A stretch of 30,647 nt of DNA from a virus: IMG/VR virus record IMGVR_UViG_3300042346_000135, positions 1-30,647 of that record, one strand, 5' to 3'. A program made the translations under genes and the position numbers. Numbering within the stretch: the first letter of the stretch is position 1; every line of letters starts with the position of its first letter. The notes beneath the pieces were generated by a model. That model was not told the origin of the DNA and did not search any database. It saw nothing but the letters and a program-made list of their open reading frames with translations. Below, one piece after another: positions 14,266 through 28,937 of the stretch.

Positions 14266-16844
14266 GGAATAAGGCCCATAGCTCTCATATTACGATCTCT
14301 ATCCATAGCATTAATTTGATCTTGAGTCATTCCTCCAGCAACAGCTTGGTTTAAATTTGCGTATTGACCATAATCATTAGTCGTAGGAGTAGGAGCAGTT
14401 GTTAAACTCACTTGATTAGGATTACTTAAGTTAATAGGTGGAGTTTGCACAGATTGGTTATTCGTATTTATAAAACTATTCATTGCGGCAGTATCTTCCA
14501 AGTCACCTTGATACCCTGCATTAGTTGCTATATCTTCTAACTCCTGTTGACTGCTAGGTGCATATGTGTAAGTTACGGCAGGTTGTGTTACGGTTGGTGC
14601 TACAGGACTAACTAAAGACGCAACGCCCCCTGCATTTATAAAACTATTCATTGCGGCAGTATCTTCCAAGTCACCTTGATACCCTGCATTAGTTGCGACC
14701 CTTTCTAAAAAAGAGTTTCCTTCTACTGCCGCTTTATCTACTGCCGCTTTATCTGCTGCCGCTTTAGTATCTGCTGCTAGTATGTTCGCACGATCAGCAG
14801 GGGTTATAAAACTCTCCATAGCTGCTGTATCTTCCAAGTCACCTTGATAACCCAGATTAGTTGCGTCCCTTTCTAAAAAAGAGTTTCCTTGTTGAGTTAC
14901 TGCAGGTTGTTGTGTTACGGCAGGTTGTTGTGTTACGGCAGGTTGTTGTGTGGACGTCTCTTGCTGTACTGCATTAGGAGTATTTAACAAGCTTGTAATA
15001 GAGGATGCTCCATTAGGCCCAGTCGCAGCAGTGTTCATATTACCCGTTGTTGTAAACCCACCTATGTTTGTAGCTATCCCATTGTTTGCCCCTGCGGATG
15101 CAGTCATAGCCGCCCTATTACGTGCTCCATCAATAGCAGTAGTTTGGTCTTGTCTTATTACAGCTGCAATAGCCGCTTGGTCTGCTGCATTACCGTTCTG
15201 AGCCCAGTATTGCTGAGCCGCAGTGAGCTCACTTGGGACAGTGTAAGGAGTTGTATTTGTAGCTATTCCATTATTAGGTGTAGGTGTAGGATTATACTGA
15301 TCTGCGGTAATATTTGCATTTTTTGAACTGACTGCTGTAGTAATATTACCGGTATTCCCTGCAAGTGAATCAATTAAAGTAGAGTATTTTATCCGATCTG
15401 CTAAATCAGGAGTACTAGCTGCAAGAGAGTTATACCAACTAGGGGTAGATGCAAACGCTGCACGTGTTTCAGGGGTAATATAATTATCAAAATTGTATTT
15501 AGATAAAAGTGCTTTATCCGCCGCTGCTTTATCCGCCGCTGCTTTATCCGCCGCTGCTTTATCCGCCGCTGCTTTATCCGCCGCTGCTTTATCCGCCGCT
15601 GCTTTATCCGCCGCTGCTTTATCCGCCGCTGCTTTATCCGCTGCTAACTCAGCGGCTGTTTTTACAGTAGGCTTACCTGTTATAGGCACTATAGGAAGTG
15701 TTGTTTTCGTTGTATCAGGCGCACCTGGTTTAGTTGCTTTCCCTGCTGAGTTAGTAATACTAGGCTGATATATTTTTGATAGTGCAGGGGATAAGCTTGT
15801 TATTGCTTTGGGGTCGTAAGGTTGACCAGCAGTATTAGCTAATTTTAATAAGTCTTTAGACGTGGGGGTGTTTTCAAACGGTTTTTTGATATTGGTTAAA
15901 TCAGGCGTCTCAGGCATCTTTAGCTGATTTGTATAACCCGCCGCGTAAGGATTTTTATACCCTGATAACATCCCGTTTAAAATGTTTGAGTATGGCGATG
16001 TAGAGTTAGCAACTAACTTACCAGAAGCATCTAATGACGGTGCGCGGTAAACCCCTTTATTAGGGTTGTAAGATTGTGTAAACCCAGTCATTTTATCAGG
16101 TTCTATCTCTCCCCCAGTATAAGCAAAGTTACCGTTAGCATCTTTAAAACTCCCTTTAGGAAGTAACCCTGTAATCCCATCAGTAGGTGTAGTTGTAGTA
16201 GTGGTATTTGACCCATCACCTGTGGTCGCATCTTTGGTTAACTTAGATACGTTTGAGTTATATGAATCTACTAATTTACTAGGGTCGTTTAATAGGGATT
16301 TGTATGTAGGGCTATCTGTAATATCACTAAATTGACTAGCTGATGACCCTAATGATTTAATAGTTGCTGTCCGTGCAACAGTTATAATTTGATTACCTAA
16401 ATCATTAAAATCGGCGCTCCCAGACGCAACTGCATCTATAAGGTCAGTGTTAATTAACGACTGGCCTTTATCAGTTTTTAAACCGCCAAAATCTTTTGTA
16501 AGCTGCGCTTTATATGCATCTACTGATGCAGGGTCTTTTGGGTCCAGTGCTAGGTAATCAGTGATGTATGAAGGCGGTTTAACTGTAGGGTCTTTAGCTA
16601 AGATAGTTTGAATAGACGTAGGTATTCCTGCATCTTTCATCCATAAGGCAAACGCCTTTTTAAGAGGTTCTTGAACAGTAGCTGTTGAGTTACTATTAAT
16701 TTCCAGTTGCCAAGTTTTTAGCTGGTCAGCAAGAGTAGCATCATCCGCTAGGTTATCTTGCAAAAGCTTTGCGTTACCCTTAGTAATGGCAGTTTGGGTT
16801 GGGGTAAGCCATGTGCTTTTAATGGTTGGGTCTAGTGGTTGCAT
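14262..16844 (-). CDS. Large repeat-rich virion protein of unknown function
   Basis: An 860-aa protein, low complexity outside its first ~200 residues. The N-terminal part is helical and ordered (e.g. TWQLEINSNSTATVQEPLKK, DPKDPASVDAYKAQLTKDFG). Then come a Thr/Asp linker, nine tandem AADKA units (about residues 400-445), an Asn/Thr/Ala-rich region, three QQPAVT units, and three copies of a motif centred on GYQGDLEDTAAMxSFI (starting near residues 651, 709 and 767). The C-terminus contains DQINAMDRDRNMRAMG. No catalytic motif is visible. It sits between a repeat-rich Gly/Ala protein and a GNAT-like protein, so an internal-core or ejection role is likely. It starts 9 nt after the upstream stop and ends in an ATGA overlap. 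Confidence 0.7.
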   Translation of the reverse strand: MQPLDPTIKSTWLTPTQTAITKGNAKLLQDNLADDATLADQLKTWQLEINSNSTATVQEPLKKAFALWMKDAGIPTSIQTILAKDPTVKPPSYITDYLALDPKDPASVDAYKAQLTKDFGGLKTDKGQSLINTDLIDAVASGSADFNDLGNQIITVARTATIKSLGSSASQFSDITDSPTYKSLLNDPSKLVDSYNSNVSKLTKDATTGDGSNTTTTTTPTDGITGLLPKGSFKDANGNFAYTGGEIEPDKMTGFTQSYNPNKGVYRAPSLDASGKLVANSTSPYSNILNGMLSGYKNPYAAGYTNQLKMPETPDLTNIKKPFENTPTSKDLLKLANTAGQPYDPKAITSLSPALSKIYQPSITNSAGKATKPGAPDTTKTTLPIVPITGKPTVKTAAELAADKAAADKAAADKAAADKAAADKAAADKAAADKAAADKAAADKALLSKYNFDNYITPETRAAFASTPSWYNSLAASTPDLADRIKYSTLIDSLAGNTGNITTAVSSKNANITADQYNPTPTPNNGIATNTTPYTVPSELTAAQQYWAQNGNAADQAAIAAVIRQDQTTAIDGARNRAAMTASAGANNGIATNIGGFTTTGNMNTAATGPNGASSITSLLNTPNAVQQETSTQQPAVTQQPAVTQQPAVTQQGNSFLERDATNLGYQGDLEDTAAMESFITPADRANILAADTKAAADKAAVDKAAVEGNSFLERVATNAGYQGDLEDTAAMNSFINAGGVASLVSPVAPTVTQPAVTYTYAPSSQQELEDIATNAGYQGDLEDTAAMNSFINTNNQSVQTPPINLSNPNQVSLTTAPTPTTNDYGQYANLNQAVAGGMTQDQINAMDRDRNMRAMGLIP
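14467..14893 (-). repeat. Three long in-frame repeats in the 860-aa protein
   Basis: Copies lie at about 14467-14545, 14635-14725 and 14805-14893. The first two share 62 identical consecutive bases (14467-14528 and 14635-14696). The second and third share a further nearly identical stretch downstream (14691-14721 and 14859-14889, differing at one base). All encode the GYQGDLEDTAAMxSFI motif; two also encode NSFLERxATN. Base-level identity over this length implies recent duplication or ongoing recombination. Confidence 0.9.
15511..15645 (-). repeat. Nine tandem 15-nt repeats encoding AADKA
   Basis: The 15-nt unit gctttatccgccgct (+ strand) occurs nine times head to tail. The first eight are identical and the ninth (15631-15645) has one change. 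On the coding (-) strand each unit gives Ala-Ala-Asp-Lys-Ala, a helix-favouring charged/Ala repeat. The unit length preserves frame for any copy number. Perfect identity suggests slippage-driven expansion. Related AADKA/AVDKA codons recur near 14735-14775. Confidence 0.95.
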
Positions 16845-16853
16845 TTGTATCTC

Positions 16854-18368
16854 CTATGCTGGTAAGTGTCTAGAGGCTTTAGGGTTGTCTGAAAACTTAC
16901 CCTTACCAGTTGTTTTTTTACGGTCTGATTGAATACGGTCCATCATTTGATAAAGACGTTTAGCGCCTGCATCAGTAGAGCCATTACCTAACTCAGAAAC
17001 AATACGTGCAGGCACTACGAACTCACCTTCAGCCAATCGAGCAGGTTGCTTACCACCAATAGTAGCAGGGATATCGTCAGAAACGCCATCGCCAGGACCT
17101 TTGAGCAGTCGTCCGCCATCAGAATACCCTCCTAAATCAGAAATACCACCATGTGCCATCAGTTGCACAGAGTCACCCATATAACCTTGGTTGTTTGACA
17201 CTTCGTTGCGGTTAGGGATATCAAGCGTTCCAGGACTTTGCATCTGCGGTGCTTGGTCATAGTTATCTAAATCGGTAATCCCACCCGCTGCAAACTGAGG
17301 ACCGTATGGACGATATACGTTAGGGTTCCACTTATAGTTACTACGAATACCTTTTTGTTCTGGTATCGTAGGGTCAGATGCCAAGGCAGAGTCTAAAGCC
17401 ATACCTGAACCCATACTAAGTGCAGCCGGAACAAGCACATCATGTTTAGCAGCAAAGTTACCGATACTCCCTAACGTACCCCCAGAACCAGCCATAGAAG
17501 CAAGACCAGCACCCGCAGCACCACCTACAGCACCAGTAAGTGCACCTTTACCCATAGCCTCACCAACATCTTGACCTTGTGCGCCAGCAACTAAACCGTT
17601 AATACCAGCATTCATAACACCGCCTTGCAGTGCCCCACCAGCCATTTTAAGACCCGTATTACCTACTATATTCCCTTGGTTATTTGTTAAATCAGCAAGA
17701 AAGCGAGTTCCCATATTGGCATCTGTGTAAGCTGAAGCATTGGCTATTTGGTCTGGGGTTGCTTGAGGACCAACAAAGCCGGGTTGTCCTGGGAGTGTAC
17801 TAATACCTCCAGAGGAACTATTCATAACGGACTGCTGACCTAGCATATTAGCCGCAGATTGATTACCCGCTACTCCTAGCGAATTTGGGGCTGTTGTTGG
17901 AACTACACTTGTACCTTGGGGACCTAACCCTGCAAACCCAGCACCTTGTTGAGCAGTTTGACTAACCCCTTCTTGCGCTAATTGCTCTGCACTTTTTTGA
18001 GCTACTTGTTGCGCTGTTTGACTAACCCCTTCTTGCGCTAATTGCTCTGCACTTTTTTGAGCTACTTGTTGCGCTGTTTGATTAACCCCTTCTTGTGCTA
18101 ATTGCTCTACACTTTTTTGAGCTACTTGCTCACCTACTTTGGATGCAACTTCTCCGCCTTGGAACGCTGGGCCTAATGCTCCTACAGCACCAGATGCTAA
18201 CCCACCAATACCGCCCATCAAAGCACCCTCACCAACATCTCCACCAGTAAGAGCAGAAACTCCAGCACCCAAGCCAGCACCAGCAACGGCACTAGCACTA
18301 GCACCAGCGGCAGCACCTAATAACCCTCCACCAGCCGCAGCGGTAACCATACTTGCAATAAAACTCAT
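16854..18368 (-). CDS. Gly/Ala-rich virion protein with 20-residue repeats
   Basis: A 504-aa protein starting at an ATGA overlap with the cupin gene. The first ~65 residues are a hydrophobic Gly/Ala stretch (AAAGGGLLGAAAGASASAVA), which could insert in a membrane. Residues ~80-140 are three tandem 20-residue helical repeats (consensus VAQKSAEQLAQEGVSQTAQQ). Later there is a second Gly/Ala-rich region, then FAAGG (359), MAHGG (404) and YSDGG (415). The C-terminal domain GPGDGVSDDIPATIGG, with EGEFVVPARIVSELGNGS, is one I recognise as recurrent in structural genes of environmental tailed phages, without a known function. Context and composition favour an internal or ejected virion protein. Confidence 0.75.
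   Translation of the reverse strand: MSFIASMVTAAAGGGLLGAAAGASASAVAGAGLGAGVSALTGGDVGEGALMGGIGGLASGAVGALGPAFQGGEVASKVGEQVAQKSVEQLAQEGVNQTAQQVAQKSAEQLAQEGVSQTAQQVAQKSAEQLAQEGVSQTAQQGAGFAGLGPQGTSVVPTTAPNSLGVAGNQSAANMLGQQSVMNSSSGGISTLPGQPGFVGPQATPDQIANASAYTDANMGTRFLADLTNNQGNIVGNTGLKMAGGALQGGVMNAGINGLVAGAQGQDVGEAMGKGALTGAVGGAAGAGLASMAGSGGTLGSIGNFAAKHDVLVPAALSMGSGMALDSALASDPTIPEQKGIRSNYKWNPNVYRPYGPQFAAGGITDLDNYDQAPQMQSPGTLDIPNRNEVSNNQGYMGDSVQLMAHGGISDLGGYSDGGRLLKGPGDGVSDDIPATIGGKQPARLAEGEFVVPARIVSELGNGSTDAGAKRLYQMMDRIQSDRKKTTGKGKFSDNPKASRHLPA
17951..18130 (-). repeat. Three tandem 60-nt repeats in the 504-aa protein gene
   Basis: Units begin at about 17951, 18011 and 18071 with an exact 60-nt period. 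The first two copies are identical over about 50 nt; the third differs by three substitutions (at about 18082, 18096 and 18109). Each encodes the 20-residue helical unit VAQKSxEQLAQEGVxQTAQQ. Confidence 0.95.
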
Positions 18369-18820: not shown

Positions 18821-19450
18821 TCATGAGTATAGTGCTGAAACAAACGTAGCGGTAAGGATGACAGGAGGTATCGCAGGGGAGAATGAATTAGCTGCTACTG
18901 CTTTTAATATAACGTCCACATGGTCAGCTGCCCAGTAAAGCTCAAAGTAATCTCCAGCATTCATTGGAAGTACAAAATTCCATGCAGCTACCATCTCAGA
19001 ACTACTAGACCCCGTTAGCTGAAGCTTAGTATTAGAGTCAGGAATATCTACCCCATTTACTCTAGGCCATATCCACGCAGACATCGCACTACCTGAAGTC
19101 TTAGCCAGTTGCGCTGAGAACTGAAAGTTGTAGTATCCAGCCACGCTGGTTACGATGTGTGATGTAGTTGTTCCAATAGCAACTTGATTTGATACGGCTG
19201 TATTGTTAAACGGTATAGCGTAAGCCGTATTTATAACAGGTATCGTCTGCTGCGTAGTCAAATAAAAACTACCGACAGGAAATTTAAAAGCCGCTCCCCC
19301 TGCAATACTCAGCAGGGATTGGAACGTATTATCGAGTTGATTGAAGTATAAGCGCAGTACGTTGTTTAATTGGTCAAGGTAGTTACGGCTATATTGCACC
19401 TCAGCAAAAGGTAAACTTGGTGCTTTAGGGGTTTGGACTGTAATACTCAT
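18821..19450 (-). CDS. Virion fibre/appendage protein with C1q/TNF-like C-terminal domain
   Basis: A 209-aa protein coupled to the upstream stabilisation gene by an ATGA overlap. The N-terminal ~60 residues are helical (NYLDQLNNVLRLYFNQLDN), likely a trimeric stalk. Residues ~75-209 look like a C1q/TNF-type jelly roll: FPVGSFYLTTQQTIP, the strand AGYYNFQFSAQLAKTSGS, WIWPRVNGVDIPDS and AGDYFELYWAADHVDV. Such domains trimerise and often bind ligands at the tips of phage appendages. It probably forms a tail-associated knob or spike. The jelly-roll call rests on the strand pattern and the aromatic spacing. Confidence 0.6.
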   Translation of the reverse strand: MSITVQTPKAPSLPFAEVQYSRNYLDQLNNVLRLYFNQLDNTFQSLLSIAGGAAFKFPVGSFYLTTQQTIPVINTAYAIPFNNTAVSNQVAIGTTTSHIVTSVAGYYNFQFSAQLAKTSGSAMSAWIWPRVNGVDIPDSNTKLQLTGSSSSEMVAAWNFVLPMNAGDYFELYWAADHVDVILKAVAANSFSPAIPPVILTATFVSALYS

Positions 19451-21534
19451 TTCTGCCCGTCTTGCTTAATTTCGAGTCGCATAGCACCCAACTGCCACAT
19501 AGACCCTAGCTGATTGTTATACACTTTAAAAGAAAACTGTCTACCGCGTACGCGGATAAATACTTGTCCTGTAAACTTCTCAATAGGCACAGTCGCTGTG
19601 CGCGTTACCGCCGCTTCATTTGTTCCGCCAACAGACGCTGGGTCTGTATACCCACTCCCTGCGTTCATCAAAGGGATAATAGAAAGTGTTGCTGTTGGGT
19701 TCTCTGTTGTAGAACCTCTAAACGTCATATCAGGCAGGATTCTGCGAATAAACACAAAGTTGTGTCCGTCATCAATATCAGTTTCAGAGCTTGTAATGTA
19801 AGACTCAATAGCTGTAGGCGTAGCTGTCTCGTTATTATCAAGACCACTTTCGTGGTTAACTAAGTTATTTGAGTAAGTAGCTGCAATAGGGAATTCTAAA
19901 ATCCCAGAGTCAAGCCAAGCGGTGCGACCCATCGTGCCGTAATACCATATATCTTCAGCGTAATTATATACTGCATATTTGTCCACCACAGTGCTACCGG
20001 CAGAGCAGTAGAACCACCAGACTTCGTTAAACCCTTCGTTGGTACTGGCAAAGACTTGCTCTGCTTGTTGTGTATTAAAGTCATTAAATATGTACTCCCG
20101 TAAGTCGCAGTTTTGTGTTTGCACACGACCATCGTATTTATAGAATTTATCTCGCCCCATCCAGTACACAACACCCGAAGCCAAAGCAGCTGAGTTTTCA
20201 CCTACGATAGAGATATTATCCCCAAGAAGCTGTGCGCTCCACACCAGCGGGTAACCTAAGTACTGCATAGAGTAGAGCGTAGAATCCGTCCAAACTAGAA
20301 TCTCTTGGCGTGTTTGCAATGCCGTAATAATCTGAGACCCACGAGTTAAAGTCAGTGAACCTGCTTGATTAGTAGTAGATGGTGTCCAGTCAGCGGCATT
20401 CTCTTGGTCAGACCAGCGTATTAACAGTGGGCTTTGAGCAGATACACCGTAGTCATTAGCACCAAAAGCAAATACAAAGCGGAAAGTGTCTGATACGGTA
20501 ATATAGTTTTGAATAGTTGGGACATCTGAAGCTCCAGCAATAGTCGTTAAATTTACTGCGCGTGCTGAAATAGATTGGGTACCTGACCCTGCTACAGTAG
20601 CGTTGATTAGAGTCCCTGCGGAGTCAGTTATATTAAACACACCTGCAACATAATTTTTTATATAGTAAGTCGTACCTGTACTAAGCCCTGTAGGAAGTGT
20701 GCCTGACGTTTCAAAGGCTATTGGTGCGCCTTCTGTATACTGGTTTGTAGTAGTAATAACTGCTGGAGATGCTACTGAAATAGTTGCTGTAGTAGATGCA
20801 ACCCCTCTCTCTGCATAATAATAATACATAGCGCCAGTACGCGGACCAAAGACCAAGTCTTCACCGTAGTTACTCTGAGACCAAAGGCGAAGAGAATCCG
20901 TAGTCGCAACGCCGGTACCCCATACACCAAACCCCCAACCGCCAGCACCCCAACCAGTCACTGCGGTTTGAATCTGTGGACCGCTATTTATCTGATATAC
21001 AGCCCGGACTGTGCCGCCGTTCCCAGTGTCTCCACTGGTTGCCGCTATACTAACTGAAATCGTGTAAGAGTTTACACTAACATACGTAATCTGGTGCTCG
21101 GTATTAAGTACAGCTGCCGTGATAGCCCCACCTAAAGTTGTTGCACCGTTATAAGTAACAAAGTCCCCATTAATGCACCCATGTGAAGGCGCTGTCACCG
21201 TAATGACCGTTGAGCCTGTAGTGGCTGCAAAGGGTGTAGTCAGGTTAGTTGCTGTGCGAATAGGCGTAATGTCGTTATAGTACCCACCACGAGAGATATA
21301 GAACTTAGTATTTGTTCCAACACCTATAAGCGGTATCTGAGCAAGTGTTTGCCAAGCCCATAGTGAGCGACATACTCCATTAAAGGTAGAACTAGAAATG
21401 CGATTCCAACCCCCTATTTTCTGTGGAGTACCTTGACGAAAGCGTATTTTATTGCAGTCGTACCATCCTCCTTCTGTAAAATACCGGGAATTTTCGCGAT
21501 TAACGCCTGACTTCACTACGAGTTTTTTAAGCAT
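19447..21534 (-). CDS. Tail/DNA-stabilisation protein (P22 gp10-like)
   Basis: A 695-aa protein. The N-terminus GGWYDCNKIRFRQGTPQKIG and the later ILVWTDSTLYSMQYLG, WMGRDKFYKYDGRVQ and NEVWWFYCSAGS segments match the pattern of phage packaged-DNA stabilisation (P22 gp10-type) proteins, which form part of the short tail's hub below the connector. Repeating aromatic beta units suggest a propeller or multi-blade beta fold. A Thr/Gly-rich stretch with GWGAGGWGFGVWGTG (about 190-205) is inserted in the middle; a similar GWG segment opens the 169-aa protein at 24884-25393. The family usual length is shorter (P22 gp10 has 472 aa), so extra beta insertions are present. It starts 3 nt after the lysozyme stop. 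Confidence 0.55.
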   Translation of the reverse strand: MLKKLVVKSGVNRENSRYFTEGGWYDCNKIRFRQGTPQKIGGWNRISSSTFNGVCRSLWAWQTLAQIPLIGVGTNTKFYISRGGYYNDITPIRTATNLTTPFAATTGSTVITVTAPSHGCINGDFVTYNGATTLGGAITAAVLNTEHQITYVSVNSYTISVSIAATSGDTGNGGTVRAVYQINSGPQIQTAVTGWGAGGWGFGVWGTGVATTDSLRLWSQSNYGEDLVFGPRTGAMYYYYAERGVASTTATISVASPAVITTTNQYTEGAPIAFETSGTLPTGLSTGTTYYIKNYVAGVFNITDSAGTLINATVAGSGTQSISARAVNLTTIAGASDVPTIQNYITVSDTFRFVFAFGANDYGVSAQSPLLIRWSDQENAADWTPSTTNQAGSLTLTRGSQIITALQTRQEILVWTDSTLYSMQYLGYPLVWSAQLLGDNISIVGENSAALASGVVYWMGRDKFYKYDGRVQTQNCDLREYIFNDFNTQQAEQVFASTNEGFNEVWWFYCSAGSTVVDKYAVYNYAEDIWYYGTMGRTAWLDSGILEFPIAATYSNNLVNHESGLDNNETATPTAIESYITSSETDIDDGHNFVFIRRILPDMTFRGSTTENPTATLSIIPLMNAGSGYTDPASVGGTNEAAVTRTATVPIEKFTGQVFIRVRGRQFSFKVYNNQLGSMWQLGAMRLEIKQDGQK

Positions 21535-22962: not shown

Positions 22963-24879
22963 TTAAACTGAAGTGATTGTTTGCCATGCCGCACCAGAGT
23001 AGACGCAGAGTTTAGCTAATGTTGTATCAAAAACCATTAAACCTGCCGCAGGTGACGCAATGGCGTTTTTTTGCGTAGTTGTCATATTAGGCATTCTCAC
23101 GCCTTTTGTCGTTGACTGTACATCAAGAATGGCGGATGCGTTAGGTGAAGCTGTACCAACCCCCAAACTCCCAGCCAAATAGTTATCAGCCGTTCCTGCC
23201 ATATAGAGATTATATCTGCCTGTACCATAGGGTATAGCACCGTAAAAGCCGTAGTTGTTTGTTGCGCTAGTAAAAGCCCCTGTTGTGTAACCAGTCATTG
23301 TGCCTATAGATGAGCCTGCGCCAAGAGAGTCTAGCGTTATGTTATACCCAGTTACACTACCTATACTTGCTGCCGCTGCTGTAGATATACCCGTATAATT
23401 GAACGTAGCCGTAGCAGTAGAGTCTGTTGCTATAGTTGCTTGATTTACAAATCCATATGTATTTGTCGCACCTGTTAATGTTTTTGCAAGCCTAAAATTT
23501 TGTCCGGTAGCGGCACCGCTGCCTATATTAAGTGTACCAGCCAAATAATTATCAGCCGTTCCTGCCATATAGAGATTATATCTGCCTGTAGCAAACGCTA
23601 TACCACCGTAAAATCCGTAGTTGTTGGTTGCGCCTGTGAGCGATGCTGACACATTAAAACCAGTTTGAGTAGTTACAGTTGACCCTGAGACTGTGCTTTG
23701 ACTAGCATAATAGTGAATCAGCTCACCTAATGTTGAGCCTGTTTGTAATGATAAATTACTTGCGTACCCAAATGCCGCGTTTGTAACATCTGTCATAACT
23801 TGAGCGGATACCCAAGACCCATAAGCTACTGTGCCACCGGTTATATTTTTTCCTATGGTTGCCGAAGCTATCGAACTTGCAGACCCTCCTATTCCAAAGT
23901 TTCCCGAAGAAGTAACAAGCATTTTTAAACTGTTATTCACATACCATTGATGTCCCGCGTATGCACCATAAGCCATCTTGCCATTTAATGATATTGAAGT
24001 AGACGTTGACGTGGGGGCAGAATCATAGATGCCCCAAATAGCATTGTAGTCGCCTATTGACGTACTAGCATCTGAATCACCTCCTAACATTAAACTAAAT
24101 AACCTTGGTGTTGCAGTGTTAGATGCCGCTCTTACTATACTAAACGGACAAAAATTCCAATCTAATCCGCTAGTAATTTTTGACACAGCAGAAGCTGTAT
24201 TTCCTCCAAGCTGTAGTCCCCCAGACACAACTAACGCTGAACTAGAAGTGGAAGATAATGTAACTTGCGCAGGGAAAGTTGGGTTTGATGCAAATACCGC
24301 TACGCCTGTGCCTGTTTTATCTGTTAATGCTGCAGCGAGGTTTGCGCTAGTGAAAGAACCTAAAGAAGCTGCATTACCAATAGAAGTTATAGCACCAGTA
24401 AGATTGGCGTTGATAGTTGCTGTGCCAGTCGTGTTTCCTGTCCCACCATTTAAAATAGGTAAAACCCCTGAAATAGTATTAGGGGTTACCTCAACAAAGT
24501 CTGAGCCGTTCCAAGCTACTATAGATGTTTTACCAGAAGCAATCGTTACGCCTGTGGTCGCAGCGCCTTTAAGCACTACAGCCGCGTTTGACTGGTTAAT
24601 TACAATGTAGGCTTTACTTAAGCTAGGTGCAATAATATTGCGTGATACACCAGGTGAGCCTGTTGGGATAAGAATGGCTTTTCGTGCTTCGTTTGTCGCG
24701 CCAGACCCCGTTGTTGAAAGAGTCCAATTTGCAGAAAGTACAGAAGCCGTAGCAACTCCTGCAACAGAGTCTTCAACAAGTTGAGTTACGCTAGTATTAA
24801 CTGTATCGCCCCATGTCCCAGCTTCTGTACCTGAGACGGGTTGGGCAAGCCCTAAAAGTGTTGTGTAATTAACTGTCAT
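22963..24879 (-). CDS. Tail fibre protein
   Basis: A 638-aa protein, Ser/Thr/Gly/Asn-rich throughout. The N-terminus (MTVNYTTLLGLAQPVSGTEA, then GTWGDTVN) is a typical virion-attachment start of phage fibres. The segment GVLPILNGGTGNTTGTATIN is a common collar/fibre motif, followed by long beta-helix-like stretches. Two copies of a TNNYGFYG...GRYNLYMAGTADNYLAG module are present, with a third partial copy (TNTYGFVNQ). The C-terminus (SPNASAILDVQSTTKGVRMP, then VYSGAAWQTI) is the usual distal domain of receptor-binding fibres; no intramolecular chaperone protease motif is visible. It should bind the host surface. Starts 4 nt after the upstream stop. Confidence 0.85.
   Translation of the reverse strand: MTVNYTTLLGLAQPVSGTEAGTWGDTVNTSVTQLVEDSVAGVATASVLSANWTLSTTGSGATNEARKAILIPTGSPGVSRNIIAPSLSKAYIVINQSNAAVVLKGAATTGVTIASGKTSIVAWNGSDFVEVTPNTISGVLPILNGGTGNTTGTATINANLTGAITSIGNAASLGSFTSANLAAALTDKTGTGVAVFASNPTFPAQVTLSSTSSSALVVSGGLQLGGNTASAVSKITSGLDWNFCPFSIVRAASNTATPRLFSLMLGGDSDASTSIGDYNAIWGIYDSAPTSTSTSISLNGKMAYGAYAGHQWYVNNSLKMLVTSSGNFGIGGSASSIASATIGKNITGGTVAYGSWVSAQVMTDVTNAAFGYASNLSLQTGSTLGELIHYYASQSTVSGSTVTTQTGFNVSASLTGATNNYGFYGGIAFATGRYNLYMAGTADNYLAGTLNIGSGAATGQNFRLAKTLTGATNTYGFVNQATIATDSTATATFNYTGISTAAAASIGSVTGYNITLDSLGAGSSIGTMTGYTTGAFTSATNNYGFYGAIPYGTGRYNLYMAGTADNYLAGSLGVGTASPNASAILDVQSTTKGVRMPNMTTTQKNAIASPAAGLMVFDTTLAKLCVYSGAAWQTITSV
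23171..23590 (-). repeat. Duplicated fibre segment (two ~54-nt copies)
   Basis: Copies at about 23171-23224 and 23537-23590 differ at only one position (AGTT versus AATT near the start). They encode the YNLYMAGTADNYLAG part of the fibre. The flanking TNNYGFYG codons are also similar but more diverged, indicating a duplicated fibre module. Confidence 0.85.
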
Positions 24880-24883
24880 GTTT

Positions 24884-25393
24884 TTAACCTAGTGTGTTAA
24901 TGGGTGTCCAAATTGCGTCTTGTGTTGTAGTAATCGGTGCCCAGTTAGCAGTTTGTGTATCATCTATATCCTCCCATAAAAACCGCGAAGTTAATGAGCT
25001 TGTTGCTACTACCGTTTCATTTATATTACTAACGTACGTACCTTGTGCACTAACTACATCTATTGCGCTTACAGATTCAACGACATTTGAAAGATATGTA
25101 GCCGCTACAGATACTGAATCCAAAGCAGTTATAGACTCTAATAAAGTAGTAGATATTATTATAGTGTCTGTTTGACTATCAGTTGCTGATACCGACTCGC
25201 TAATAGACGGACTTAGTATTATTATCCCTGTTTGGGAGTCAGTTACGGTTACCGTTTCAGTTAAACTTACTAAGGCGTTTAGTAGTGCAGTCTGAGTATC
25301 CGTTGCTGTAACAGCTTCCGTAATAGAATCCACATAACCAGAACCACTCCATGCCGATACCCCCCAACCTCCGCTACCCCAACCGCCAGCCAC
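24884..25393 (-). CDS. Virion surface protein with six 20-residue beta repeats
   Basis: A 169-aa protein. It opens with a Gly/Trp segment (AGGWGSGGWGVSAWSGSG), similar to one inside the stabilisation protein. Residues 24-143 consist of six consecutive repeats of exactly 20 residues, consensus [IVL]xE[ST]V[ST]ATDSQT followed by eight variable, largely hydrophobic residues. The C-terminus DDTQTANWAPITTTQDAIW has two further W-x-P-I repeats. The pattern suggests a regular beta solenoid or fibrous shaft. No family is recognised with certainty. It lies directly upstream of the tail fibre, with a 4-nt gap, so a tail-appendage role is likely. Confidence 0.7.
   Translation of the reverse strand: MAGGWGSGGWGVSAWSGSGYVDSITEAVTATDTQTALLNALVSLTETVTVTDSQTGIIILSPSISESVSATDSQTDTIIISTTLLESITALDSVSVAATYLSNVVESVSAIDVVSAQGTYVSNINETVVATSSLTSRFLWEDIDDTQTANWAPITTTQDAIWTPINTLG
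24965..25324 (-). repeat. Six tandem 60-nt (20-aa) diverged repeats
   Basis: The 20-residue period is exact over six units in the protein (residues 24-143), although DNA identity between units is low. Each unit carries an E-[ST/A]-[VI]-x-A/V-x-D core. High divergence with strict length points to an old, structurally constrained repeat, unlike the near-identical arrays further left. Confidence 0.8.
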
Positions 25394-25402
25394 AAGAGTT
25401 TC

Positions 25403-25897
25403 CTACACTGATGCTGTATAAGTTACAAGCAGTGAATCGCCTGAAATAACCGCACGCGAAGTTGCAAAACTCCCTGCTGAGTAAAGAGTTCCAGTAGTAC
25501 CGCCTTTAGTGTTATTGTTAACTAATAACGCCCCCGCAATAGTAGCTGTAGCGTTAATATTAAATGTAGCTGGCGAACTTGAAATAGAATTAGTAGGAGT
25601 AGGTGTACCAAATGTTGCTTGAGGTCTAGTGGCGTTAGAGTAAGCAGTGCTTTCAGTCCATCCTGCATGAGAGCTTATAGTATCTGCATCCGCATAAGTT
25701 GGTGAAGTGGCGCCGTTTACAAGCCCTAAATACCATGCAGTTGTCTGAGTACTTGAGGCAAGGTATACATTTAATAAGTTAGCCTTACCTACAGTTACAA
25801 CAAGATTCTCAATTAAATCTTCCCATTTTAAATTTCCATTAGCATCAAGGCACTTTACTTCATACCGTCCTGTTGCATTTACTGATTCTATATACAT
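25403..25897 (-). CDS. Conserved phage virion/tail protein
   Basis: A 164-aa beta-rich protein. Landmarks are the N-terminal GRYEVKCLDANGNLKWEDLI, then VTVGKANLLNVYLASS, AWYLGLVNG, SSHAGWTE, and a second domain ATIAGALLVNN ending GDSLLVTYTASV. This sequence of short motifs (W-E-x-x-x-N-x-V-T-x-G, then WYLGL, then shagW-E, then aGA-x-L) is one I associate with a phage structural family encoded among tail or head-decoration genes; its exact role is not known to me. It sits between two other surface-type proteins with gaps of about 9 nt. Confidence 0.7.
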   Translation of the reverse strand: MYIESVNATGRYEVKCLDANGNLKWEDLIENLVVTVGKANLLNVYLASSTQTTAWYLGLVNGATSPTYADADTISSHAGWTESTAYSNATRPQATFGTPTPTNSISSSPATFNINATATIAGALLVNNNTKGGTTGTLYSAGSFATSRAVISGDSLLVTYTASV

Positions 25898-25906
25898 ATT
25901 TAGTAC

Positions 25907-26323
25907 CTAATTAGATGACCGGATGATGGCAGAAGTCGCTGTATTCGCCGGAAAAGTTATTGTAAAAGTTGAATTTGTTACCTTATCACTACCAAAGTCT
26001 AATACAGCAACAGAGCGATTAGCTTTAGAGCTATTATATATCAACGCGCCACGTACTGTGAAACTTGCTGAAGTCCACGATATATTATCAAAGCTAATAT
26101 ACGCAACACCACTTGCTGAACTGACTATAGGGTTAACTAAAGACTTACCACCTGCTGTATATCCAGTGCTCGTAATCTCACCTGTAGCAGTGTAAGCAGT
26201 GGTATCTTGATTCAGCGTAGCGTTAGCGGTGTACAGAGCAATTTTAAACGTATCCGTAGTGAAATTATGGATAGCCTCGTAAAGCTCTTTTTTAAAGCTA
26301 GTTGTTTGGCCTTGTACTATCAT
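25907..26323 (-). CDS. Conserved phage virion/tail protein
   Basis: A 138-aa protein whose ATG overlaps the stop of the adaptor gene as ATGA. Landmarks: TSFKKELYEAIHNF (helix), TFKIALYTANATLNQDTTAY, GYTAGGKSL, ISFDNISWTSASFTVRGALI, and a final beta strand TFTITFPANT. The pattern (short helix, K-x-ALYT, W-x-x-A-S-F-T-x-R-G-A-x-I-Y) recurs in small phage structural proteins next to head-tail adaptors. A beta-sandwich decoration or tail component is likely; no enzymatic features are seen. Confidence 0.7.
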   Translation of the reverse strand: MIVQGQTTSFKKELYEAIHNFTTDTFKIALYTANATLNQDTTAYTATGEITSTGYTAGGKSLVNPIVSSASGVAYISFDNISWTSASFTVRGALIYNSSKANRSVAVLDFGSDKVTNSTFTITFPANTATSAIIRSSN

Positions 26324-26982
26324 CTAACAGGTATCCTTGCTTGACCGTTACGGTACGCATCGCCTCTGTCTTTGCCCGTAGCTAATGTATTGAGTAAGTT
26401 CATAGCTTCTTCGTAGCGTTGACGATAAGTTGTCATAATGTCTGCATCGCCTTTAAGGAACGTGTACGCTTCTAATATAGAGCCATACAGCAACGCAGAG
26501 TCAAAGTTTTCACCTAGCCATGTATTACCACCAGACTCTTCACTTGTAATAGAAGGCGGGTAGTAGAAGTAGTGAAGCTCTGTTTCATACTGCACATCAG
26601 GTGTAGGCCCTAAGATAAACGTCAATTCGTTTATATCATTAGACTGCGGTCCAAAGATAGCATAATACTTAGGTGTTCCATAACTCGTTGGGCTTGGGTA
26701 AGCTTCGTGGATGAAGTTAACGTCTTTGTTTAAAAGGTAGGTGTACTCACCGGATGTAGGGTCAATAACCGCAATAGAGTAGGCCGATAAAAAGTCATTC
26801 GGGCATTGCAGGTATTTATTGTGTAGAGTAACTACACCCGTGACGTTTTTACGCAAGTCTGGAAGCTGTATTGAATTGTAAATACGCTGCTCCGCCTCTT
26901 GAATAAAGAGGTTAACTTGCGCAGTAGAAAACGTGTTCTCTACATAGTCTTGAATTGCTGCTGCCAGTTCTGCGTAAGTCAT
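26320..26982 (-). CDS. Head-tail adaptor protein (SU10-adaptor-like)
   Basis: A 220-aa protein. The N-terminal helix (FSTAQVNLFIQEAEQRIYN) and LPDLRKN, the middle strands (YLQCPNDFLSAYSIAV), the ELHYFYYPPSI strand, and the C-terminal helices (SALLYGSILEAYTFLKGD, then YRQRYEEAMNLLNTLATG) match the layout of podoviral head-tail adaptors of the SU10 type, which bind below the portal and extend the channel. It ends in an ATGA overlap with the next virion gene and follows a tiny basic gene by 3 nt. Confidence 0.7.
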   Translation of the reverse strand: MTYAELAAAIQDYVENTFSTAQVNLFIQEAEQRIYNSIQLPDLRKNVTGVVTLHNKYLQCPNDFLSAYSIAVIDPTSGEYTYLLNKDVNFIHEAYPSPTSYGTPKYYAIFGPQSNDINELTFILGPTPDVQYETELHYFYYPPSITSEESGGNTWLGENFDSALLYGSILEAYTFLKGDADIMTTYRQRYEEAMNLLNTLATGKDRGDAYRNGQARIPVR

Positions 26983-27132: not shown

Positions 27133-27540
27133 CTAAGTTGTGATTGTAACAGTGCCAACAGACGCGATGGCAACAAGGTAATTAGGTGTAAGTACTGCAT
27201 CAAACTGTGAAGCGCCACCAACTGGTGCCCAACCCCATTGAAATACACGACTTCCGTCTGTCGGTACGCCGTTATCCGTTAAGGTCAATTGTAACCCATT
27301 TAGACCTGCTTGGTAATAGCTTGTATCGGGTCTGGGATTACGTAAAGCCTGTGGGTCAAAAATTGGATATAGACCAAGTAGTAACTGTGGGTGATCATAA
27401 TCCCAACAACTCTTACAGACAAGTATGTTAGTTACTTTAGTCTTAACCGTTAATTTCTTAAGGTCTTTTAACTGAAACCTTTGAGAGCACCTATCGCAAA
27501 ACGCATGACTCCACTTACCTGAAGAGTATTTAACTGACAT
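27133..27540 (-). CDS. Zinc-ribbon phage structural-region protein
   Basis: A 135-aa protein. An N-terminal zinc ribbon is formed by C15, C18, C42 and C45 (AFCDRCSQRF and VCKSCWDYDHP). It is followed by DPQALRNPRPDTSYY and a C-terminal beta region (GGASQFDAVLTPNYLVAIAS). This domain order is familiar from small proteins near the head-tail genes of environmental phages; the function is unknown. Its start lies inside the 3' end of the homing endonuclease gene (11-nt overlap), with AGGGGA just upstream, so the ribosome site is within endonuclease coding sequence. Confidence 0.75.
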   Translation of the reverse strand: MSVKYSSGKWSHAFCDRCSQRFQLKDLKKLTVKTKVTNILVCKSCWDYDHPQLLLGLYPIFDPQALRNPRPDTSYYQAGLNGLQLTLTDNGVPTDGSRVFQWGWAPVGGASQFDAVLTPNYLVAIASVGTVTITT

Positions 27541-28126
27541 CTAAGTCCCCTACAAATTCTGGGTATCTACGTGCGTATTCCACTTTCCAAGTATCCCCGT
27601 AATTTCTCTTTATATTTGAAATTCGCCCTGCGCGTTTTCTGTTTTCTATTTGCTCAGGTGTACATTTATACCCTTTGTTATAGGCATTACCTTTTCGAGC
27701 ATTTATAGACTTTTCTCTGTAGCTTGGGTCTGCCCATAATGCTTTAGTACGTTCAGCTTTCTTTTTACGTTCTTCATCAGTAAATGCAATTCTACCATCA
27801 TTCCGCTTCATTGTATTTTCTGTAGGATTTAATGCCCCTATACAACTAGCTTCATAAAAATTTAAATTTTCTTTAGCACAGATGATTAGTACTTTTATAT
27901 CAAATGCTGACGCGCCATGCTGATGATACGTCTTGCTAAAATTGTCATATGTGGTTACTTGTTCGTTATTGTGCATACTACTTAGGTGTTGTCCTAGTCT
28001 ATTTCTAATGTTTGTAGAACTACCTATATACGTTCTATTAGTAACCGTATCTGTAATCATGTATACACCACTAACGCTACCAACTGTAAATGACGCTAAT
28101 CTATTATCTTTATATTGATTTGCCAT
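27530..28126 (-). CDS. GIY-YIG homing endonuclease
   Basis: A 198-aa protein from the ATG at 28126, chosen because AGGAGG lies just upstream (28131-28136); the frame is open further to 28222 but has no ribosome site there. GIY-YIG motifs: GVYMI (20-24), TYIGSS (32-37), then R41/R43 and H47, and NFYEASCIGALNPTEN with the metal-binding Glu and conserved Asn. The second half (DEERKKKAERTKALWADPSY and KCTPEQIENRKRAGRIS) is a NUMOD/intron-endonuclease-type DNA-binding tail. The enzyme makes site-specific breaks that spread its own gene. It is freestanding, inserted in the late operon between adaptor-like and zinc-ribbon genes; neither neighbour is interrupted. Confidence 0.92.
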   Translation of the reverse strand: MANQYKDNRLASFTVGSVSGVYMITDTVTNRTYIGSSTNIRNRLGQHLSSMHNNEQVTTYDNFSKTYHQHGASAFDIKVLIICAKENLNFYEASCIGALNPTENTMKRNDGRIAFTDEERKKKAERTKALWADPSYREKSINARKGNAYNKGYKCTPEQIENRKRAGRISNIKRNYGDTWKVEYARRYPEFVGDLDVS

Positions 28127-28196
28127 AACCCCTCCTATATTTAGAAAGGGATACTTTACCACATCAGTCACATTATTGTCCACATCAATCACATAA
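28127..28196 (-). promoter_or_regulatory. Leader of the homing endonuclease gene with direct repeat
   Basis: This 70-nt spacer is the longest gap in the late operon. On the - strand two 13-nt copies, GTGAtTGATGTGG and GTGAcTGATGTGG (28180-28192 and 28159-28171), lie 21 nt apart, about two helical turns. A weak sigma70-like pair (TGGACA, 18 nt, TAAAGT) overlaps them. A strong AGGAGG ribosome site precedes the ATG. The repeat could be an operator for a private promoter; this is tentative. Confidence 0.4.
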
Positions 28197-28937
28197 CTAA
28201 ACGTGCATAATCCGTGGAACAAACCGATTACTCGCTTTCTCTCTGTCTTCTGAGAGTGCCAAGTCTAACTGTTGCTCATACTCCCCTTTAAGCATTTGAA
28301 TACGGCTAGGGTCTACGCCAGCAAGCTTCATACTAAGATAAAAAGCTAATCCTGCTACCATCGCATTCAATAAACGGAACGGGATATCTTGTGTGTTTAC
28401 TGCATTTCCAGCATCTTGCATCCTGCGTAGTCGCCAGTAAACAAAGTAATAATAAGGTGCTTCGGCTGTGCCTTGGTCTGGTGTAGGCCATATATTAATC
28501 TGTGGAGCTTTAGTAACTGTAGTTGCACCGTCAGGGTAAGTTGCTCCTGTGCGGCGGTTAATCCATACTTGAATTGGTCTACCCCGTGCATTCTTATTAG
28601 GAATTGTAGAGTAAGTCGATTCAGAGATACGAGAAATATTAATATCTACTTGATTTTGCCCTGTGCCTGTACGTACTACATGGTCAAGTAAATCAACAGT
28701 GTCTATAGGTAGGTCATAAGCAATTTGACCCGGTATGAGCGAAATGGGTACAGCACACTGTTCAATTGTCCATAAATTAATACCTCTGTTTGCAAACTCT
28801 ACTAAGAGTAAGTTTAGAGAACGTCTAGCTGTGCGCATATCGTAACCGCTGCGAAGCTCTTGTCCGCAGCGCTCAAACGCCTCTTCTACGAGGTCACCTA
28901 AATCAAGGTTAAAGTTTGCTGTACCCGATGTCGTCAT
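28197..28937 (-). CDS. Putative head-tail connector/adaptor protein
   Basis: A 246-aa protein whose ATG overlaps the stop of the micro-ORF as TAATG. Landmarks: LGDLVEEAFERCGQELRSGY, TARRSLNLLLVEFANRGINL, WTIEQ, a PISLIPGQIAYDLPIDTVDL strand pair, ISESTYSTIPNKNARGRP, and C-terminal helices with LLNAMVAGLAFYLSMKLAG. I recognise this as a common podoviral connector-region family, encoded next to head-tail adaptors; it is comparable in role to P22 gp4 or T7 gp11. It shares the helix-sandwich-helix layout with the 220-aa adaptor downstream, so the two may form successive rings under the portal. Confidence 0.65.
   Translation of the reverse strand: MTTSGTANFNLDLGDLVEEAFERCGQELRSGYDMRTARRSLNLLLVEFANRGINLWTIEQCAVPISLIPGQIAYDLPIDTVDLLDHVVRTGTGQNQVDINISRISESTYSTIPNKNARGRPIQVWINRRTGATYPDGATTVTKAPQINIWPTPDQGTAEAPYYYFVYWRLRRMQDAGNAVNTQDIPFRLLNAMVAGLAFYLSMKLAGVDPSRIQMLKGEYEQQLDLALSEDREKASNRFVPRIMHV

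Follow-up and report, generated by a model that had tools for sequence, protein, structure and literature searches.

What kind of protein is assembled from six consecutive units of exactly 20 residues whose DNA has diverged, and of what use might such a protein be to the virus that encodes it? The question is raised by a short gene on the minus strand of the record scanned here, a virus sequence of 30,647 bases called the window below. The original prediction, made from the sequence alone, placed six strict repeats at 24965-25324 and read the product, here termed REP, as a short spike with a GWG-rich anchor.

The repeat protein and its six units

24884..25393, minus strand: repeat protein (REP), 169 aa, GTG start, from the ORF list and its translation
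25400..25404, minus strand: AGGAA, read directly from the sequence, a putative ribosome-binding site
25337..25387, minus strand: aromatic triad GGWGSGGWGVSAWSGSG (W-x4-W-x4-W) of REP, from the translation
25265..25324, minus strand: REP unit 1, ITEAVTATDTQTALLNALVS, from repeat analysis
25205..25264, minus strand: REP unit 2, LTETVTVTDSQTGIIILSPS, from repeat analysis
25145..25204, minus strand: REP unit 3, ISESVSATDSQTDTIIISTT, from repeat analysis
25085..25144, minus strand: REP unit 4, LLESITALDSVSVAATYLSN, from repeat analysis
25025..25084, minus strand: REP unit 5, VVESVSAIDVVSAQGTYVSN, from repeat analysis
24965..25024, minus strand: REP unit 6, INETVVATSSLTSRFLWEDI, its second half part of the C-terminal cap
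24887..24982, minus strand: REP C-terminal cap FLWEDIDDTQTANW, then 11-residue tryptophan repeats, from comparison with relatives

The AGGAA lies 6 bases 5' of the start codon of REP and overlaps the end of the upstream gene. The predicted repeats are where they were said to be, since residues 24-143 map to 25324-24965, and they do form six gap-free units: at lag 20 the core of REP has 37 identities in 100 comparisons, against a mean of 10.3 and a maximum of 23 in 5000 residue shuffles, and no shuffle equalled this score at any of the lags 5 to 40. The motif proposed for them, E[ST]V[ST]ATDSQT followed by eight variable residues, describes a genuine repeat but sums to only 18, the two residues before the E completing the 20, and its ATDSQT portion is strict in units 1-3, if T/S and A/V changes are allowed, but not in the rest. 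Unit 6 is the weakest, being half repeat and half cap, with SRFLWEDI starting the cap common to relatives. The expected divergence of the DNA is borne out as well, as pairs of units share 3-10 of 20 amino acids and 21-37 of 60 nucleotides (35-62%), and Tandem Repeats Finder at score 30 reported no array at the units. A DNA-level repeat or an assembly artefact is thus ruled out, given the absence of an array by that program, the divergence of the units in DNA and the many contigs that carry the pattern.

The lag scores of REP are higher at even than at odd lags, as expected for beta strands, and the protein is rich in S, T and A, with no K, one R and a net charge of about -17. In the unit profile of the relatives the hydrophobic positions are V1, A5, V11, A13, F17 and A19. 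As the anchor used to find units demands E at position 3 and restricts positions 4 to 9, columns 3-9 of this profile are partly a matter of construction; the frequencies free of that bias are V1 61%, V11 52%, A13 50% and F17 34%. A constant repeat length, a conserved turn and hydrophobic positions, the combination by which a beta-solenoid or trimeric beta-fibre shaft would be recognised, are all found here.

Relatives, spacing and the C-terminal cap

A scan of viral contigs yielded 297 confirmed relatives, the best 80 of which were used and, together with the window, provide a first set of 73 distinct proteins. Of the 700 anchor spacings in this set (best 80 of 297), 607 are exactly 20 and 642 are multiples of 20; among its 39 mutually less similar members the spacing is exactly 20 in 305 of 358, while shuffled sequences give 1.3%. 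Because the cap octamer DDTQTANW had been one of the patterns in that scan, the search was repeated with queries ending before the cap. The resulting second set comprises 75 distinct proteins, 13 of them also in the first set and 62 new (L042, L048 and L050 were left out), and its spacing is exactly 20 in 595 of 657 cases overall and in 499 of 554 among the new proteins. Insertions and deletions inside units, which would speak against a structural constraint, are rare: the first set has 17 spacings of 19, 21 or 22 against the 607 of 20. The exceptions include L033, L043, L057, L066 and L071, with spacings of 19, 21 and 46, and L069, with 21 and 41. The repeats are therefore a solid observation, with support from relatives beyond that available to the original prediction, and the proposal that their strict length reflects structural constraint is strengthened accordingly.

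The octamer DDTQTANW is present in all 73 proteins of the first set (best 80 of 297), where it was itself a search pattern; in the second set, where it was not searched for, it occurs in 38 of the 69 proteins whose 3' end is present; for the new proteins alone the count is 26 of 57. A looser cap pattern is found in 67 of the 69, including at least one chance match, that of L302, which lies in a shifted frame. The distance from the first unit to the cap equals 18 modulo 20 in 47 of the 73 first-set proteins (best 80 of 297) and in all 38 second-set proteins with the exact octamer; another 15 of the 73 give 16 modulo 20 because of an internal 58-residue step. Estimated from this distance, unit number in the 70 complete first-set proteins (best 80 of 297) runs from about 6 to 29 with a median of 12, L040 having about 14. 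The description as a short spike consequently suits the window protein, which stands at the short end, but not the family.

The genomic slot and its divergence

22963..24879, minus strand: fibre-type gene, 638 aa, directly downstream of REP, the variable partner in the block
25403..25897, minus strand: phrog_8123 protein, directly upstream of REP, from a PHROG match
25907..26323, minus strand: phrog_644 protein, from a PHROG match, at the edge of the block and conserved among close relatives
26320..26982, minus strand: SU10-type tail adaptor (PF24175, E 1.1e-23)
19447..21534, minus strand: tail hub or nozzle-type protein with its own GWGAGGWGFGVWG triad, from searches and comparison

The order adaptor, phrog_644, phrog_8123, REP, fibre recurs among the relatives, with all four neighbours present in 54 of 80 loci (best 80 of 297). 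A phrog_8123 relative lies upstream of REP in 74 of these loci, a fibre relative lies downstream in 74, and 69 have both. The 638-residue product of the downstream gene matches no Pfam family and no PHROG below E 0.02, and it is called a putative fibre on account of its position, length and composition. The phrog_8123 protein has a relative in PDB entry 26la, chain U ('Structural protein'), the aligned part of which recurs without a change in proteins of Pseudomonas phages KPP25, CRPAP1904 and YMC17/07/R4900a. Judging by the adaptor and by the relatives of the hub, the phage is probably short-tailed. A search of genome contigs with the DDTQTANW pattern alone matched one stretch, which was not confirmed, and for that reason no cellular host is proposed.

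Divergence across the slot was followed in 11 relatives out of the 80, picked for flanks like those of the window. Identity to the window in these is 40-73% for REP, 54-91% for phrog_8123 and 34-74%, over partial coverage, for the fibre; phrog_644 is 84-95% identical in 8 of 9 of the close relatives, L008 being the exception at 49%. The adaptor is 87-99% identical in all 5 relatives compared, in three of them over partial length, and the hub 76-93% in 7; in L007 an ORF that looks by eye like a lysozyme is 98% identical. L003, L004 and L008 gave hub scores of 34-37%, which were set aside as chance, there being no counterpart at E 1e-5. Between the window and L003, REP has a dN of 0.163 and a dS of 0.50, such that dN is below dS with a ratio of about 0.33, as compared with 0.06-0.14 for adaptor, phrog_644 and phrog_8123. 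This contrast in identity and dN/dS argues that in close relatives REP diverges with the fibre and not with the tail core. REP thus sits beside a fibre-type gene and changes with it between conserved flanks, as would a member of an adsorption block, a contrast that is clear in the 11 chosen relatives only. It fades in distant loci such as L020, where the flanks are about 60% and REP 33% identical, because the flanks there have diverged too.

Several further features of these regions deserve record in their own right. A second SU10-adaptor-like protein is encoded at 28197-28937 (PF24175, E 1.9e-9), in addition to that at 26320-26982, and between this gene and the ORF at 27133-27540 lies one at 27530-28222 that is presumably a GIY-YIG-like endonuclease, identified by eye; a similar ORF follows the repeat gene in L035. 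Glycine-rich ORFs with GGGGGSG blocks, perhaps further adhesins, stand between the repeat and fibre genes of L064 and L070. One to three extra ORFs separate phrog_8123 from the repeat gene in L009, L010, L013, L033 and L043, and one extra ORF upstream of the repeat gene begins MALV[LI]ADRV[KR]ETTT. Elsewhere in the window, about three near-identical 60-nt repeats at 17945-18128, within a 504-aa minus-strand ORF, encode the 20-residue repeat KSAEQLAQEGVSQTAQQVAQ, which is recent at the DNA level and helical by eye, and nine 15-nt repeats (99% matches) at 15510-15645, within an 860-aa ORF, encode an ADKAA array.

Aromatic triads

The idea of a GWG-rich anchor is not supported by comparison with the relatives. 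Among the 70 complete first-set proteins (best 80 of 297), W-x4-W-x4-W is N-terminal in 56, F-x4-F-x4-F takes its place in 10 and neither is found in 4, and internal triads occur as well, of the W kind in 18 and of the F kind in 4. L252 has at least six W triads, several of which split a unit between its E-A-T and D-T-V parts; the pattern matches 15 times, with overlaps, over a 1251-residue stop-to-stop frame whose start is not fixed. Hubs carry the W triad too, in 9 of 9 fragments long enough (3 of the 12 were too short), as well as in those of DSL-LC04, HTVC027P, Pag-Yong1 and CRP-901. Seven of those nine hub triads adjoin a repeat protein with an N-terminal F triad; the repeat protein of L010, among the seven, carries a W triad internally as well. 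Docking of REP to the hub, GWG to GWG, was considered but is not supported, as the hub triad is present whatever the N-terminus of REP and the two are not associated. Since it is found in hubs and at internal sites, we regard the triad as a recurrent module of tail-region proteins and not as a special anchor of REP.

Gain, loss and exchange of units

Comparison of 455 pairs of relatives showed 183 gaps in the C-terminal part, 173 of them 11, 22 or 33 residues long. Gaps in the repeat part are prominent at 20, 40, 60 and 80, likewise at 38, 58 and 98, the latter belonging to groups with internal triads, and many are of 1-2 residues; given this mixture, we rely upon the anchor spacings. The gene of one relative, L002, is nearly identical to the window over nt 0-200, then in its middle matches L007 at offset +180 and subsequently +420, and over nt 420-510 returns to the window, with an equally good match to L004. 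The L002 gene is a mosaic in which pieces of different alleles meet, and as both offsets, +180 and +420, are multiples of 60 nt the exchange kept phase, whatever its history. Near-identical 60-nt tandem copies, which indicate recent duplication, are found in L019 and L075 and are absent at that threshold from the other 78 of 80 loci (best 80 of 297). The unit phase, the whole-unit length classes, one in-phase mosaic, the fixed slot and, in close relatives, a divergence faster than that of the flanks are established by these comparisons.

Structure prediction and alternative readings

It had been suggested that structure prediction should reveal a regular repeat fold. For the window protein it does not: the AF2 monomer from a 34-row alignment has a pLDDT of 42 and no secondary structure, its last 29 residues being the best (block means 57-73). 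For relative L020, modelled from 25 rows, two strands per unit do emerge, typically at positions 20-6 and 9-17, with low confidence (pLDDT 48). Foldseek with the L020 model gave no match at E <=0.001 in PDB or BFVD; the best E in the PDB is 0.24, with probabilities <=0.33 and TM-scores <=0.43 among the 50 matches listed, and the best in BFVD, at E 0.006, is an uncharacterised protein of an uncultured phage. Sequence searches place the window protein in no known tail-fibre family of Pfam (best TBCC, E 0.037, below its cut-off) or PHROGs (best E 0.055), and it matches no PDB sequence up to E 1. Alignment A1, of 34 members with the window, has one that matches a PHROG named tail protein (E 0.006), two that match the unnamed phrog_12240 (best E 2.2e-5) and one that matches phrog_32217. 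A tblastn search of phage records with P0001 (E 1e-3, low-complexity filter on) returned nothing. The literature, as far as its available text extends, offered no description of the REP protein, and the accessible part of PMC9599517 does not mention it.

These predictions speak neither for nor against a solenoid or a trimeric shaft, and they admit further readings. REP could be a monomeric beta-solenoid with one coil per 20 residues, placed on or capping another tail protein and itself binding a host polysaccharide. The L020 model has about two strands and two turns per unit, as such a fold would, and most of the 50 PDB matches listed are beta-helix proteins, tailspikes and pectate-lyase types among them. 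Those matches carry little weight, however, because of their poor E-values, probabilities and TM-scores and the pLDDT of 48 of the model behind them, and the window protein alone gives no fold; we consider the solenoid unlikely. The absence of a confident AF2 fold in both proteins might equally be taken to mean that REP is a low-complexity, mostly disordered spacer or linker whose period stems from tandem duplication and not from folding, and the acidic composition, poor in basic residues, would not be out of place there. Yet the period outlives similarity of the DNA, which slippage alone would not sustain, indels within units are rare, and the alternation of even and odd lags together with position-specific hydrophobics suggests beta strands, leaving a disordered spacer decidedly improbable.

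A structural part with no share in adsorption, be it a collar, a decoration protein or an assembly ruler, would be expected to adjoin adaptor, phrog_644 and phrog_8123 genes as REP does and to keep a C-terminal cap common to relatives, and might change quickly solely through its proximity to the fibre gene. But a range of about 6-29 units is hard to accommodate in a collar of fixed geometry, and in the 11 chosen relatives the identity of REP drops with the fibre gene and not with the adaptor. We judge such a role improbable.

A proposed rod of the attachment apparatus

The reading we prefer, at a probability of roughly 0.55, is that REP is a modular, elongated, strongly acidic and beta-rich fibre-type part of the host-attachment apparatus of what is probably a short-tailed phage. 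The differences of whole blocks among relatives suggest a rod of adjustable length within that apparatus. Each 20-residue unit would probably consist of two short beta strands meeting at a conserved G-T-D turn, and the units would stack end to end, so that their number would set the length of the rod. The aromatic triad module, usually N-terminal, and the C-terminal tryptophan cap with its 11-residue repeats would close the rod, and probably attach it either to the virion or to the fibre next to it. As all units have a common phase and core, recombination, whether between genes or within one, may insert, delete or replace them whole, 60 nt at a time, with the fold left intact; in this manner the length and surface of the rod could co-evolve with the adjacent fibre. 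Location in the virion, the fibre role, the beta fold, the oligomeric state and an effect upon host range are what we infer for REP.

If this is right, it puts a name to a family of probable virion proteins which is poorly covered by Pfam and PHROGs and numbered 297 relatives in one viral-contig scan. Unit number would become a simple countable variable that can be related to adsorption or host range, and REP would offer structural work a natural phase-locked repeat scaffold.

Comparison with known systems

Trimeric beta-spiral shafts such as that of the adenovirus fibre, and other viral beta-fibre shafts, are built from beta repeats of fixed length whose number sets the length of the shaft. 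REP resembles the adenovirus type in having fixed-length repeats whose number would set length, and differs in its unit, which has 20 residues and the core V-x-E-[ST]-x-[TS]-x-[TS]-D, with no PDB sequence match. In the usual fibre, the N-terminus is the virion-bound and conserved end; the REP family, with a shared C-terminal cap and a variable middle, has the opposite arrangement, which counts against the preferred reading.

Closer counterparts come from other phages. When relative L017 was used as the tblastn query, its cap matched a single stretch of 27 residues in phage DSL-LC04 (E 0.4), which led to a counterpart with 22-residue units, WJZ48131, a 'hypothetical protein' of 376 aa that has W triads, units of VTGVQ type and W repeats at its end. 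Like REP, it and its IMG/VR relatives have W triads, W-containing C-terminal 11-mers and a slot between phrog_644 and fibre; unlike REP, their units are of 22 residues, of the kind VxVTGVQATGxVGxVTV. Of 507 spacings in 64 proteins of this type, 380 are multiples of 22, with 279 of these exactly 22. Its 80 IMG/VR loci have phrog_644 upstream in 53, a fibre relative downstream in 30 and both in 18, and a phrog_8123 match in none. A third form is gp68 of Pelagibacter phage HTVC027P, a 'hypothetical protein' of 321 aa, which by eye shares with REP the W triads (N-terminal and internal), regular VTG...G units and a terminal W motif, and differs in its unit sequence and in having no DDTQTANW cap. 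No hybrid of 20- and 22-residue units was found among 126 ORFs with a W triad under the patterns used, which disfavours free exchange between the two kinds. It is at most a tentative suggestion, then, that in this group of podophages the slot beside the fibre gene holds plug-and-play rods, in which 20- or 22-residue beta units would be interchangeable, W or F triads would serve as insertable modules, a tryptophan cap would end the rod, and in-phase recombination would tune length and surface.

In the accessible text of PMC7565637, beta-spirals are given about 17 residues per 15 A, and the beta-bracelet of Orsay virus CP-delta is described as an attachment fibre of many short beta repeats, rich in V and L with acidic loop residues, whose five-residue strands and three-residue loops form a pentamer on an animal-virus capsid. 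Set beside it by description, REP would be alike in its short, V-rich, acidic beta repeats. Host-recognition genes are noted to vary in marine phages, again in the accessible text (PMC3909814). We file REP, a protein that no searched family library models and whose location and function are predicted, as a variant of the viral beta-fibres built from repeats of fixed length.
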